DNA from: Anaerolineae bacterium
GTDB taxonomy: Bacteria; Chloroflexota; Anaerolineae; CG2-30-64-16
NCBI GenBank assembly: GCA_026645775.1
Contig: JAPKMS010000343.1
Span: 1 to 38,757, forward strand
Reading direction: 5' to 3'
Length of the DNA stretch: 38,757 bases
Numbering within the stretch: the first letter of the stretch is position 1; each line of letters opens with the position of its first letter. Shown in pieces: positions 27,876 through 35,881 of the stretch. The position numbers and the translations under genes are program-made. A model generated the notes under the pieces. The model searched no databases. It was not told the origin of the DNA and saw nothing but the letters and a program-made list of their open reading frames with translations.

Positions 27876-27921
27876 GACGTGAACGGAATCAGAGCATCTC
27901 ACGCCTCACGTGATCACAGCC

Positions 27922-27971
27922 CAAGGAGCATTCTCTGGATGAAAAACATCCTCGTCCTTCACAGTCCCAAC
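27922..27971. repeat. Duplicate of the aroQ ribosome site and first codons
   Basis: From CAAGGA through the first 13 codons this segment matches 30654-30706. In the coding part (codons 3-13) 31 of 33 bases agree, differing only at one base of codon 9 and one of codon 12. The upstream CAAGGA and ATTCT also match. Confidence 0.9.
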
Positions 27972-30641
27972 CTGAACTTTGCAAGAATCGGCATTTCCGT
28001 CATCTGCATTCTCAGCATAGCCTGGACGGCTCTTCCTGTTGCGTGGCAACGGACCTCGGCCCAGGCACCGCGGGACAAAGATAGCTTGGCCATCGAAGGT
28101 GCGGGGCTTATAACCTCACTCGGCCCGCTGCTGACTGACGTCACAGCCCTCGCGGCAGGTGACGACTTCACCTGCGCGTTAACAACCGGTGGTGGGGTCA
28201 AGTGCTGGGGATATAACGTCTATGGTCAACTTGGCAGCATCACGCCCAGTTATGTGCAGAGTACGCCGGTGGATGTGAGTGGACTGACGAGCGGCATAGT
28301 GGCTATTGCGGCAGGCGGACGTCATGCCTGCGCACTGACGGCCAACGGTGGGGTCAAGTGTTGGGGATACAACGATTATGGTCAACTCGGTGATGGCTGG
28401 TACGGCCCATACGGCGTGCCGGTGGACGTAAGTGGACTGACCAGCAGCGTAACCGCGATTACTGCGGGAGCGTGGCATACCTGTGCGCTGACCACCAGCG
28501 GTGGGGTGAAATGCTGGGGTTCCAACCGGGATGGGCAAGTTGGCAACGGCACGATCTCCCAGGCGTACAGCACGCCAGTGGACGTAAGTGGGCTATCGAG
28601 CGGTGTCAAGGCAGTGGCAGCAGGCGGACACCACACCTGTGCATTGACCGCTAACGGTGGGGTGAAGTGCTGGGGCGGTAACTCGCTAGGTCAACTTGGT
28701 GACGGCACACCCACCTATCGCACCACACCAGTCGATGTGAGCGGGCTAACAAGCGGCGTAAAGGCTCTCGCGGCAGGATCGTATTATACCTGCGCGCTGA
28801 CTACTAACGGTGGGGCCAAGTGCTGGGGGGCTAACGAATACGGTCAACTTGGTGACGGTACAACCGTTACCCACATCACGCCGACGGATGCGATCGGGCT
28901 GTCGGGTGGCATCACGGCATTGACGACAGGCTGGGGTCACACCTGCGCACAAACTGCCAGCGGTGGGATCAAGTGCTGGGGGGCAAACGCATACGGCCAA
29001 CTTGGCAACGGCAGGGTCGAGGATCTCACCACGCCGGAGGACGTGAGCGGGCTGACAAGCGGTATCACAGCACTTGCAGCGGGCGGACTTCACACCTGCG
29101 CGCGAACCGCCAGCGGTGGAGTTAAATGCTGGGGATATAACAGGTACGGTCAATTAGGTGACGGGACGATCGCCTGGGGGCGCAGCACACCGACAGATAT
29201 GAGCGGCCTGACGAGCGGCGTCACAATGCTCACGGCGGGTGAGTCTCACACCTGCGCACTGGCGAATGGCGGCGGAGTCAAGTGCTGGGGCGAAAACCAG
29301 TGGGGGCAGCTTGGCGATGGCACGACCATCCAACGCGGTGTACCGACTGATGTAGATGAGCTGACCAGCGGCGTGACGATACTCGCAGCGAAGAGCTATC
29401 ACACCTGCGTGCTGACCGCCAGCGGTGGGGTCAAGTGCTGGGGCAAAAATGAGTACGGCCAACTCGGCGACGGGACGGCCGATGATCGCCATACCCCGGT
29501 GGATGTGGTCGGGCTGACGAGTGGTATGGTAGCCCTCGCGACGGGTTCGGACCACACCTGCGCGCTGACCGCCAACGGCAAGGTCAAGTGCTGGGGCGAG
29601 AATAACGACGGTCAACTCGGTGATGGCTCGACCGCCCAACACCGCACGCCGGTGGACGTGAGCGGGCTGGCGAACGGTATCAAGGTGCTGGTGGCAGGCG
29701 GTAGTCACAGTTGCACGCTGACTGCCGATGGGGGAGTGAAGTGTTGGGGCAACAACTCGTGGGGGCAACTTGGCGATGGCACAAACCTTGATCGCAGCAC
29801 CCCCGTGGACGTCAGCGGACTGATCAGTGGGGTGATCGCACTTGCAGCGGGCAGGGATCACACCTGCGCACTGACCAGCGCTGGCGGCGTCAAGTGCTGG
29901 GGCTATAATGGCTATTATGGTCAACTCGGCGATGGGACAACCACAAGTCGTTACACGCCAGTGGACGTAAGCGGGCTGACGAGCGGCATCGGGGCGCTTG
30001 CGGCGGGCGGGGACCACACTTGTGCGCTGACCGTCAGTGGTGGAGTCAAATGCTGGGGGCGGTTCTTGGAAGGCGTATTCGGTGACGGAACGCCCGATGC
30101 CCACCTCACGCCGGTGGATGTCAACGGACTGGCCCGCGGTGTCACAGCGATTGCAGCGGGGGTATGGCACACCTGTGCGTTGGTGGGCAGCGGCCGTCCC
30201 AAGTGCTGGGGAGCGGATTACGCTGGACAGTTGGGCTTGGGCACTTTGACCCAAAGCCTGATGCCAGTAGACGTGCTGAGTTCGGTTTCGCCATCGCTCA
30301 CGGTCAATTATCCGGACGGCCAGCCCGGCAGTTTCTTGACTCTCACCGGTGACCATTTCGCACCTTACGGTGCGATAACAATCGCTGTGAATCTCAGGTC
30401 TTTCTCGGAGGAGGTCATAGCGGACCAAACCGGCAGCTTTCTTGTTTTCCTGGCAACAACCGCGGCCGACCAGGGCCGCTACCTTGTCACTGCAGGCGTT
30501 GAGCCATCTGTTTCCGCCCAGTTCATCCTGGATGCGAACGCGCCCTTACGCGGCCAAGAAGGGGGTGGACAAACGCTGTATGTTCTCGGTGGGCTGAGCG
30601 GCATCTGGCGGGAGATCCATTTCCCATTGGTGACAAGATGA
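27939..30641 (+). CDS. Secreted RCC1-repeat protein with aroQ-derived 5' end
   Basis: A 900-residue exported protein. The start at 27939 is preferred, with AAGGAG at 27923-27928. Its first 13 codons (MKNILVLHSPNLN) are a near copy of the aroQ start and serve as the n-region of a signal peptide. A hydrophobic core (IGISVICILSIAWTALPVAW) and a likely cleavage site near TSAQA follow. Fourteen RCC1-like repeats of about 51 residues follow, each with HTCALTxxGGVKCWGxNxxGQLGDG, two Cys per repeat, likely a beta-propeller array outside the cell. The C-terminal 110 residues resemble an Ig/IPT-like module and end in IHFPLVTR. The partner or ligand is unknown. It interrupts the aroKB-aroQ order. Confidence 0.85.
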   Translation: MKNILVLHSPNLNFARIGISVICILSIAWTALPVAWQRTSAQAPRDKDSLAIEGAGLITSLGPLLTDVTALAAGDDFTCALTTGGGVKCWGYNVYGQLGSITPSYVQSTPVDVSGLTSGIVAIAAGGRHACALTANGGVKCWGYNDYGQLGDGWYGPYGVPVDVSGLTSSVTAITAGAWHTCALTTSGGVKCWGSNRDGQVGNGTISQAYSTPVDVSGLSSGVKAVAAGGHHTCALTANGGVKCWGGNSLGQLGDGTPTYRTTPVDVSGLTSGVKALAAGSYYTCALTTNGGAKCWGANEYGQLGDGTTVTHITPTDAIGLSGGITALTTGWGHTCAQTASGGIKCWGANAYGQLGNGRVEDLTTPEDVSGLTSGITALAAGGLHTCARTASGGVKCWGYNRYGQLGDGTIAWGRSTPTDMSGLTSGVTMLTAGESHTCALANGGGVKCWGENQWGQLGDGTTIQRGVPTDVDELTSGVTILAAKSYHTCVLTASGGVKCWGKNEYGQLGDGTADDRHTPVDVVGLTSGMVALATGSDHTCALTANGKVKCWGENNDGQLGDGSTAQHRTPVDVSGLANGIKVLVAGGSHSCTLTADGGVKCWGNNSWGQLGDGTNLDRSTPVDVSGLISGVIALAAGRDHTCALTSAGGVKCWGYNGYYGQLGDGTTTSRYTPVDVSGLTSGIGALAAGGDHTCALTVSGGVKCWGRFLEGVFGDGTPDAHLTPVDVNGLARGVTAIAAGVWHTCALVGSGRPKCWGADYAGQLGLGTLTQSLMPVDVLSSVSPSLTVNYPDGQPGSFLTLTGDHFAPYGAITIAVNLRSFSEEVIADQTGSFLVFLATTAADQGRYLVTAGVEPSVSAQFILDANAPLRGQEGGGQTLYVLGGLSGIWREIHFPLVTR

Positions 30642-34232: not shown

Positions 34233-34310
34233 GGTCATTTCCTGAGAAGATGTGTGAACAGAGCGCATTGTAGTGCTTGCGTGGGCAGACGTCAAAGCCG
34301 GCGTCTTGAT

Positions 34311-34338
34311 TTGACAGTCCTCACGCTTTGAATATACT
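34311..34338 (+). promoter_or_regulatory. Strong promoter of the rsgA leader transcript
   Basis: A consensus TTGACA (34311-34316), a 16-nt spacer, and TATACT (34333-34338). The distance to the rsgA start is over 300 nt, implying a long 5' leader. Confidence 0.85.
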
Positions 34339-34382
34339 AAACCTATCTTTGGTTTTTACCTCACCGAAAGGAGGCGAGTGTG

Positions 34383-34454
34383 ATGGCTCATATCAAGAAC
34401 CTCTCGCAAGCGGTTGCTTGCGCTGATCCCGCTCGTCCTCCCGTGACTGGTTGA
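34383..34454 (+). CDS. Short upstream ORF in the rsgA leader
   Basis: A 23-codon ORF (MAHIKNLSQAVACADPARPPVTG) with a very strong ribosome site AAAGGAGG (34367-34374) 8 nt before the ATG, placed directly after the promoter and before two terminator hairpins. It is followed by the hairpin GGAGCAC/GTGCTCC (34468-34487). A regulatory leader peptide is the best explanation. It has no run of one amino acid, but it is rich in Pro/Ala, with a PARPP segment where ribosomes may slow. Confidence 0.65.
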   Translation: MAHIKNLSQAVACADPARPPVTG

Positions 34455-34504
34455 GATAATCTTGGACGGAGCACACACCGGTGCTCCCACCTACGATGAC
34501 TCCA

Positions 34505-34547
34505 GGCCATGAGCAGACGACGCGATCGCACAGCTCGTGGCCTTTTT
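34505..34547 (+). terminator. First terminator in the rsgA leader
   Basis: GGCCATGAGC (34505-34514) pairs with GCTCGTGGCC (34533-34542), 10 bp with one wobble, 18-nt loop, followed by TTTTT. Its arms can also pair with those of the second hairpin. Confidence 0.75.
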
Positions 34548-34613
34548 GTTGCACCGGACCCAGCGCTCCTCAGGATGCCCTTGTGGCGGCCGGGCCGGGG
34601 TGCAACCATTTGA

Positions 34614-34650
34614 GGCCATGAGCAAAATGCTCATGGCCTTTCGCTTTTCT
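34614..34650 (+). terminator. Second terminator in the rsgA leader
   Basis: GGCCATGAGC (34614-34623) and GCTCATGGCC (34629-34638) form a perfect 10-bp stem with an AAAAT loop, followed by TTTCGCTTTTCT. The 5' arm is identical to that of the first terminator. A TTGCACC/GGTGCAA stem (34549-34605) sits between the two. Confidence 0.8.
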
Positions 34651-34657
34651 CTGACCG

Positions 34658-35881
34658 ATGGAGATAACAGAGTTGGCTACTCGACAAGAAAAGATCTGGC
34701 AGCATATCCGAGAAGATGCTGCGCTGCGGGAAGCCCGCAAACAAACCAAAAAGACGCCCAAGGAAGAGCGGGTGCGGCAGAGGGGGTGGACGGCCACCTT
34801 CGCCGAAGACCCGGAAAGCTACTATGACCTGGACATCGCTGACCGCGAGCGGGTGATGCCAAAGGGCGAAACCGAGGCGCGCCGGGGCACGGCGCCTGTT
34901 TCGCCGCTTCACAGCGGGCTCGGCCTGGACGTGCGTACCCGCTCGGACCCGGCGCAGGCAGACACCGTGCCGGAGCAGTCTCAGGGCACGGTCGTGGAGG
35001 TCAGCTCGGGCCTCTGCCGCGTGACGGTGGGCAGCCGCCTGTTGCTGTGCAGCCTGCGCAACTCGCTGCGGACGCCGCACAGCGGCTTCAGTAACGTCGT
35101 CGCCGCGGGCGATGCAGTGCTGGTGTCGCACAATGGGCATGACCGTGGGCTGGTAGAGGCGGTGTTGCCGCGGCGCAGCGCGCTGGCCCGGCCCGACAGC
35201 TTCTACCCCCACCTGCAACAGGTCATCGTCGCCAATGTAGATCAGGTGCTGATCGTCGCCTCGTGGCGCGAGCCGGCATTCTGGCCTGAGCTGGTGGACC
35301 GCTACCTGATCGCCGCGGCCCGCCACAACCTGGCGCCGACCCTCTGTATCAACAAGATCGATCTCGCCGATGACCCCGCGGCGCTGAACGCGGTCGTGCA
35401 GGCCTATGAACAGGCCGGCTGCCGGGTCATTTTGACCAGTGCGGTCAACGGGACCGGGCTGGCCGTGCTGCGTGAAACGCTGCAAGGCCGGACCACCGCG
35501 CTGGCCGGTCTATCGGGCGTGGGCAAATCATCGCTGCTGCGCGCGGCCGAGCCCGGCCTCAACCTGAAGGTGAGCGAGGTGAGCGACCGGCGCCACGAGG
35601 GGCGGCACACGACCACACAGGTATCGCTGCACCCGCTCGACGGCGGCGGTTTCGTGGCCGACACGCCCGGCATCCGGGAGTTCGGCCTGAGCGGATTGCG
35701 TCGCCCCGACCTGGCGCGCTTCTACCCCGAGATCGCGGCTGAGGCCGACGCATGCACCTACGCCAACTGCACCCATACGCGCGAGCCGGGCTGCGCAGTC
35801 AAGCAGGCGGTGCGCACGGGACGAATGCCGGCGATGCGCTACGATAGCTATCGGAAAATCCTGCGGGATCTGCCTGAGTGA
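34658..35881 (+). CDS. rsgA: Ribosome biogenesis GTPase RsgA
   Basis: Circularly permuted GTPase that checks late maturation of the 30S subunit. Motifs in permuted order: G4 NKID, G1 GLSGVGKSS and G3 DTPG, after an OB-fold region (about 105-165). The C-terminal zinc knuckle is present (CTYANCTHTREPGC). Residues 1-100 form a charged extension longer than in many RsgA proteins. The ATG at 34658 lacks a good ribosome site; TTG at 34673, preceded by GGAG, is an alternative start. It lies behind a long leader with a short ORF and two terminators. Confidence 0.93.
   Translation: MEITELATRQEKIWQHIREDAALREARKQTKKTPKEERVRQRGWTATFAEDPESYYDLDIADRERVMPKGETEARRGTAPVSPLHSGLGLDVRTRSDPAQADTVPEQSQGTVVEVSSGLCRVTVGSRLLLCSLRNSLRTPHSGFSNVVAAGDAVLVSHNGHDRGLVEAVLPRRSALARPDSFYPHLQQVIVANVDQVLIVASWREPAFWPELVDRYLIAAARHNLAPTLCINKIDLADDPAALNAVVQAYEQAGCRVILTSAVNGTGLAVLRETLQGRTTALAGLSGVGKSSLLRAAEPGLNLKVSEVSDRRHEGRHTTTQVSLHPLDGGGFVADTPGIREFGLSGLRRPDLARFYPEIAAEADACTYANCTHTREPGCAVKQAVRTGRMPAMRYDSYRKILRDLPE

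Follow-up and report, generated by a model that had tools for sequence, protein, structure and literature searches.

Two described systems come closest to the leader studied here. The bmrB-bmrCD leader of Bacillus subtilis, placed before a heterodimeric ABC multidrug exporter, combines an upstream ORF (uORF) with an intrinsic terminator, an antiterminator and an anti-antiterminator, and bmrCD is induced via the uORF by ribosome-targeting drugs; its authors describe the antiterminator as less stable than the terminator and suppose that folding is co-transcriptional (PMC4191407). The rli80-hflXr leader of Listeria monocytogenes follows a similar plan, with a short uORF overlapping an anti-antiterminator, an antiterminator and a terminator, and its target, an HflX homologue, acts on the ribosome (PMC6310831). 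Here we describe the leader of rsgA in an Anaerolineae bacterium, located in the 38,757-nucleotide stretch of DNA that was analysed (hereafter 'the window'). The family to which it belongs appears to share the sequence-level features of bmrCD/hflXr-type attenuators (uORF, terminator, antiterminator and anti-antiterminator), and we take it, with a probability of roughly three in four, to be a ribosome-mediated transcription attenuator whose ON state arises while ribosomes are detained in the early part of the uORF. An earlier sequence-only reading of the locus held that no element of this kind had been described, which is too strong, since bmrCD and hflXr share its logic (PMC4191407, PMC6310831).

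The features of the leader are collected in Table 1. The strong promoter, the 23-codon ORF with its good ribosome site and the GGAGCAC/GTGCTCC hairpin noted in the sequence-only reading are all found where it had placed them, and the sequence agrees with its description of two terminators, T1 and T2, with identical 5' arms, 3' arms one base apart (GCTCGTGGCC and GCTCATGGCC, respectively) and a TTGCACC/GGTGCAA stem between them. The leader folds at -132.5 kcal/mol, a z-score of -4.5 against dinucleotide shuffles (0 of 100 as good), and both terminators are strong by predicted fold; T1 is absent from a simple terminator scan because the scan tolerates no interrupted stem. The perfect hairpin GGCCATGAG..CTCATGGCC has one occurrence in the 4.38-Mb genome, which rules out T1 and T2 as generic terminators of these genomes.

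Table 1. Features of the rsgA leader in the window
Feature	Position	Strand	Remarks
Sigma-70-type promoter	34311..34338	+	TTGACA-16 nt-TATACT, near-consensus
uORF ribosome site AAAGGAGG	34367..34374	+	Near-invariant in alignment
P1 5' strand GGAGGCGAGTG, putative anti-antiterminator	34370..34380	+	Overlaps ribosome site; MFE fold, covariation
uORF MAHIKNLSQAVACADPARPPVTG, 23 codons	34383..34454	+	ATG 34383, stop TGA 34452-34454
P2 hairpin CGCAAGC/GCTTGCG	34405..34422	+	Inside uORF; fold and alignment
P1 3' strand CGCTCGTCCTCC	34430..34441	+	Within uORF; switch strand common to P1 and AT1
AT1, predicted antiterminator, 5' side	34433..34450	+	Partner ~34501-34520 (T1 5' arm and loop start)
P3 hairpin GGAGCAC/GTGCTCC	34468-34474/34481-34487	+	Nested in AT1
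Terminator T1	34504-34543; to 34548 with U tract	+	Fold; conserved in relatives
T1 5' arm GGCCATGAGC	34505-34514	+	Identical to T2 5' arm
T1 3' arm GCTCGTGGCC	34533..34542	+	AT2 (second antiterminator, proposed), 5' side
P4 stem TTGCACC/GGTGCAA	34549-34555/34599-34605	+	Nested in AT2, between T1 and T2
Terminator T2	34612-34640; to 34650 with U-rich tail	+	Terminator scan, arm comparison
T2 5' arm GGCCATGAGC	34614-34623	+	Complementary to T1 3' arm
rsgA (RsgA GTPase)	34673..35881	+	TTG start; PF03193 2.7e-55, TIGR00157

The longest rsgA ORF opens at ATG 34658, and the conserved N-terminus of its relatives begins at TTG 34673. From this conservation, TTG 34673, with its ribosome site ATGGAGATAACAGAG, is the probable start, and the leader coordinates should extend up to it. 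The spacing is 32 nt from T2 to rsgA in the window and about 25 nt from T1 to rsgA in leader L012. A second copy of the leader in the window's genome (G000:C53:22294-22446, L042 and L043, with the uORF MGYRFFDRHPTRSPFPAFVQQT) sits about 35 nt upstream of two consecutive ABC exporter genes. Such distances leave no space for a further promoter; this argument applies to leaders with close spacing, the target gene being further downstream in some ABC-type relatives (L038-L041). Two other features of the window lie upstream of the leader: a promoter-like site on the minus strand (34267-34295), back to back with the leader promoter and directed divergently toward an acetyltransferase-like gene, and a large tandem-repeat ORF (27879-30641) with the repeat GGVKCWGxNxYGQLGDGT, which is RCC1-like.

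A DNA search of 60 genomes identified short conserved blocks upstream of rsgA and of another gene. Covariance models built from seven leaders (R1) and from 19 leaders (R2) matched 15 and 19 of the 396 genomes of the class, respectively, and a third from 23 leaders (R3) brought few additions from a sample of the whole phylum and from other groups; antisense matches of the T1 hairpin were excluded by a stricter cut-off. In all, this covariance search, which had been proposed with the sequence-only reading, gave about 25 relatives of the leader, spread over about a dozen families in two classes of a single phylum; 8 of the 10 genomes of the window's own family have it. Both the arms and the ORF are conserved in these relatives, so that the objection that reading had foreseen, a lack of such conservation, falls. 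The order is invariably uORF, T1, gene. Most relatives have a TTGACA/TATA-type promoter in the equivalent place and, by inspection, a hairpin at the P3 position; the T1 arms are near-invariant in sequence, and P2 is kept mainly in the window's own family. No Rfam covariance model, those of riboswitches, r-protein leaders and the rimP-leader included, matched at its gathering score (only chance-level matches appeared, with E up to 5), and the leader is not, as judged by these models, a known Rfam family. One weak match (L068, in G773) was dismissed, being without ribosome site, uORF and T1. In G056 (L033/L049), T1 and T2 are present upstream of an rsgA remnant, and the 5' half (promoter, uORF and P1) is unconvincing. 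In rsgA-type leaders (for example L008, L030 and L035), ACCTCC, identical to the anti-ribosome-site core of 16S rRNA, recurs about 20 nt upstream of T1 and may be a competitor for the ribosome site of the uORF.

Comparison of the relatives brings out a switch that lies upstream of the terminators. P1, a helix between the ribosome site and the uORF end, overlaps the uORF as an anti-antiterminator. It covaries, GGCGAG/CTCGCC being replaced by GGCAAG/CTTGCC or by GGCATGTGTGAT/ATCACGCACGTC, and leaders favour their own P1 partners over swapped ones (p=5e-5), as is likewise the case for T1 (p=5e-5). Masking the uORF start, in imitation of a bound ribosome, makes the P1 3' strand, together with the bases that follow it, pair with the T1 5' arm and loop in nearly every leader. 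The resulting antiterminator AT1, exclusive with T1, is predicted in 23 leaders, in L053 only when the ribosome is placed further into the uORF. According to base-pair probabilities, the mean expected number of AT1 pairs is 6.8 in the free leader, 10.9 with a ribosome at the start and 0 when the uORF is covered; several relatives do not fully shut AT1 out in the free state, and their switch would thus be leaky.

To examine co-evolution, we slid 16-nt windows along the leaders and compared their duplex energy with the leader's own T1 5' arm and with swapped arms. Pairing with the own arm peaks at the P1 3' strand, at -14 to -15 versus about -8 kcal/mol, and this is the only place where own pairing exceeds swapped pairing. 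The association holds for 19 leaders (p=0.001), for 25 leaders (p=0.0002) and for 13 leaders taken as one per family or target (p=0.0007). Shared ancestry alone is an unlikely cause, since it would mark other positions too. The AT1 duplex found in the window ranks with the weaker ones and, taken alone, does no better than shuffles (z = +0.8), so the case for AT1 rests on the family. The sequence-only reading had proposed mutually exclusive folds; this stands for arms pairing across the hairpins, but the main switch, P1 versus AT1, was overlooked there, being visible by comparison only. Its proposal that the leader reads translation of its own uORF to decide on termination is supported. In the window and in L002, the uORF start GGCTCAT can also pair weakly with ATGAGC of T1; we dismissed this pairing as the switch because it is present in these two leaders and unconserved.

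At equilibrium, even a ribosome placed at the start leaves the ON fold (-95.0 kcal/mol) about 10 kcal/mol short of the OFF fold (-105.6 kcal/mol) in stability. The decision must therefore fall during RNA synthesis, by co-transcriptional folding. We infer the folding order and polarity of the switch as follows. RNA polymerase would start near 34345 and make the uORF, T1, T2 and rsgA in turn. With no ribosome on the uORF, P1 would lock the switch strand, and T1 and T2 would form (OFF). With the uORF translated to its end, the ribosome would cover the switch strand while T1 is made, and T1 would again form (OFF). If a ribosome is detained at the uORF start or shortly past it, for instance by slow elongation or an inhibitor of translation, it would cover the ribosome site and leave the switch strand free to form AT1 with the 5' arm and the loop of T1; this pairing, which encloses P3, would block T1; the freed T1 3' arm would then pair with the T2 5' arm (AT2, with P4 nested), blocking T2 and letting transcription reach rsgA (ON).

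Which signal would such a leader report? The gene behind it is rsgA in twelve genomes of the class and in one member of another class (G853), with a broken gene or a remnant in two more (G003, G056); ABC exporter genes in nine genomes, among them the window's own; an MFS exporter gene in one (G650); and a gene for a RIO1-like kinase in one (G389). In G006, an intact-looking leader has no gene behind it. By kind, these genes would fit targets linked to drug export or ribosome rescue, drugs as substrates of the exporters and a protective role of RsgA being putative. Since exporters, RsgA and a RIO1-like kinase have this switch in common, the signal is most likely blocked translation in general; ribosome-targeting antibiotics would be the stimulus, and additional RsgA would be of benefit under it. 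Ribosome maturation and drug export are thus, these targets suggest, handled by these bacteria as one response to blocked translation. The feedback loop specific to ribosome maturation put forward in the sequence-only reading is not supported in that form, given the exporters and the kinase behind the same leader. It is conceivable that the leader senses the supply or maturation state of ribosomes itself, scarce or immature 30S subunits altering initiation on the uORF and hence the level of RsgA: RsgA and the RIO1-like kinase are among the targets, and the initiation site of the uORF belongs to the switch. We regard this as unlikely in view of the ABC and MFS exporters, and of the several family members that carry the leader and have lost rsgA. 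Moreover, low initiation favours P1, that is the OFF state, so that ribosome scarcity would lower rsgA expression rather than raise it.

The RsgA proteins behind the leader form one supported clade and share, at the N-terminus, a basic extension some 100 residues long that contains an RxRxKxW-like motif (34673-35160 in the window); among the relatives sampled, classic RsgAs lack the leader. In the window's genome, which is 98% complete, a single RsgA passes the cut-off. In another genome, G011, a leaderless paralog of the same clade (G011:C1:22441-22968, L073) occurs alongside a leader-bearing RsgA. Leaders have outlasted the loss or decay of rsgA in G006:C203 (L008/L027), G003:C448 (L050) and G056:C248 (L049). 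Five sampled relatives have no RsgA over the cut-off; RsgA therefore seems dispensable in this group.

The pairing of arms across the two hairpins, already proposed from the single sequence, is borne out between the T1 3' arm and the T2 5' arm. In 14 leaders, an element 25-80 nt past T1 can form 8-12 bp with the T1 3' arm, and own arms pair better than swapped ones (p=1e-4). Compensatory changes are found as GGTC/GACC (L040), CGTG/CACG (L034), ACTC/GAGT (L033) and CGTGGTTT with AAGCCACG (L053), while L002 and L025 retain a GGCCATG element though the stem of T2 itself employs other bases. The spacer between T1 and T2 often forms a hairpin able to draw the arms together (P4 in the window). A duplicated T1 could also have produced the complementarity; in view of the compensatory changes, this is less probable as its sole account. 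The complementarity suggests a relay that would open T2 whenever T1 is opened. A tentative extension, to which we give somewhat less than even credence, is a two-stage design in which the 3' arm of an opened T1 antiterminates T2, so that a single ribosome event would open both gates and the OFF state would be doubly tight. Under this proposal, the exporters, a distinct RsgA subfamily and the RIO1-like kinase would form one translation-stress response, and RsgA and RIO1 would in these bacteria be induced to protect ribosomes instead of acting as constitutive assembly factors.

Could T1 and T2 simply be constitutive partial terminators or processing hairpins that lower rsgA expression, the uORF being a non-functional by-product or an mRNA stabiliser only? 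Both are strong, folds of a single genome would look alike in either case, and regulation here is predicted from sequence. Such terminators, however, give no reason for the uORF end to co-evolve with the T1 5' arm and with the ribosome site, nor for the presence of a uORF in every member, and we hold this explanation to be distinctly improbable.

The uORF is a constant feature that varies in what it encodes. In 23 of 23 leaders examined, it comprises 21-41 codons, directly follows the ribosome site and has its stop between the P1 3' strand and T1. Outside the window's own family, the peptides are unrelated, and different members read the P1 3' strand in all three frames, which argues that the RNA is kept and not the peptide. 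The uORFs of these 23 leaders have neither a conserved codon run or residue nor a conserved stalling motif (RLR and similar macrolide-stalling motifs). Peptide-specific stalling was accordingly dismissed, on the grounds of unconserved peptides and of a switch strand that falls in three frames. The same observations make it very improbable that charged tRNA is sensed through codon runs in the uORF: the combination of uORF, terminator and alternative folds does recall the trp/his plan of amino-acid attenuators, but the peptides are wholly different, the switch strand is used in every frame and the target genes are not biosynthetic. That the uORF yields a small functional peptide, or that the leader is a trans-acting small RNA ended by T1 or T2, is hardly credible: the leader of G006 would suit it, but uORF peptides are unconserved, and as G006 has no RsgA over the cut-off and other relatives have rsgA remnants behind the leader, this orphan is better taken as a case of gene loss. 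Our preferred reading remains an attenuator governed by ribosomes on the uORF; its anatomy, its conservation, the co-evolution of P1, AT1 and T1, the complementarity of the T1 and T2 arms and the target genes are what the comparative evidence documents.

If this reading is true, the leader represents an unnamed class of translation-sensing RNA switch, detectable with a covariance model, in a large and mostly uncultured phylum (Chloroflexota-type). 30S-maturation factors (RsgA and possibly the RIO1-like kinase) would join exporters in an inducible response to ribosome-targeting compounds, which would bear on the role of RsgA when drugs or impaired translation stress the cell. Two terminators relayed by way of a shared arm would be a simple design for a tighter attenuator, and the family supplies a list of probable drug exporters. 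In the literature searched, which included few subscription journals, we found no description of the leader family, its target set or the relay, and no paper that deals with attenuation of rsgA or with arm-sharing terminators in tandem. What appears undescribed is thus the family, together with its relay and the use of rsgA and RIO1 as targets, on a logic already known from bmrCD and hflXr.

The likeness to bmrB-bmrCD extends to the second leader copy of the window's genome, which also precedes two ABC exporter genes; however, the terminator of bmrB lies within the uORF, whereas here the uORF ends ahead of T1, no second terminator with shared arms is described for bmrB, and the two leaders belong to different phyla, with no sequence relationship found (PMC4191407). 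In rli80-hflXr, a single terminator is present, the uORF carries the macrolide-stalling RLR motif, unlike the present family with its lack of a conserved peptide motif, and HflXr recycles stalled ribosomes whereas RsgA matures 30S subunits (PMC6310831). The leaders of vmlR and other ABCF genes similarly use a uORF and attenuation of transcription upon translation inhibitors, but with an ABCF ATPase as target, other structures and extra translational control (PMC9226507). The rimP-leader is also an attenuator before a gene for a 30S maturation factor, with a tandem second terminator in some Gammaproteobacteria; it concerns a different gene, and the portion of the source considered here describes no uORF switch for it (PMC2965389). 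In Streptomyces, the RsgA paralog SCO6149 is activated by WblC (WhiB7) when cells respond to translation inhibitors, and the wblC gene is in turn controlled by uORF attenuation; SCO6149 is controlled by this transcription factor and not by a leader of its own (PMC7157823). HflXr (PMC6310831) and the RsgA paralog of the WblC regulon (PMC7157823) are thereby precedents for the choice of such targets when translation is blocked.
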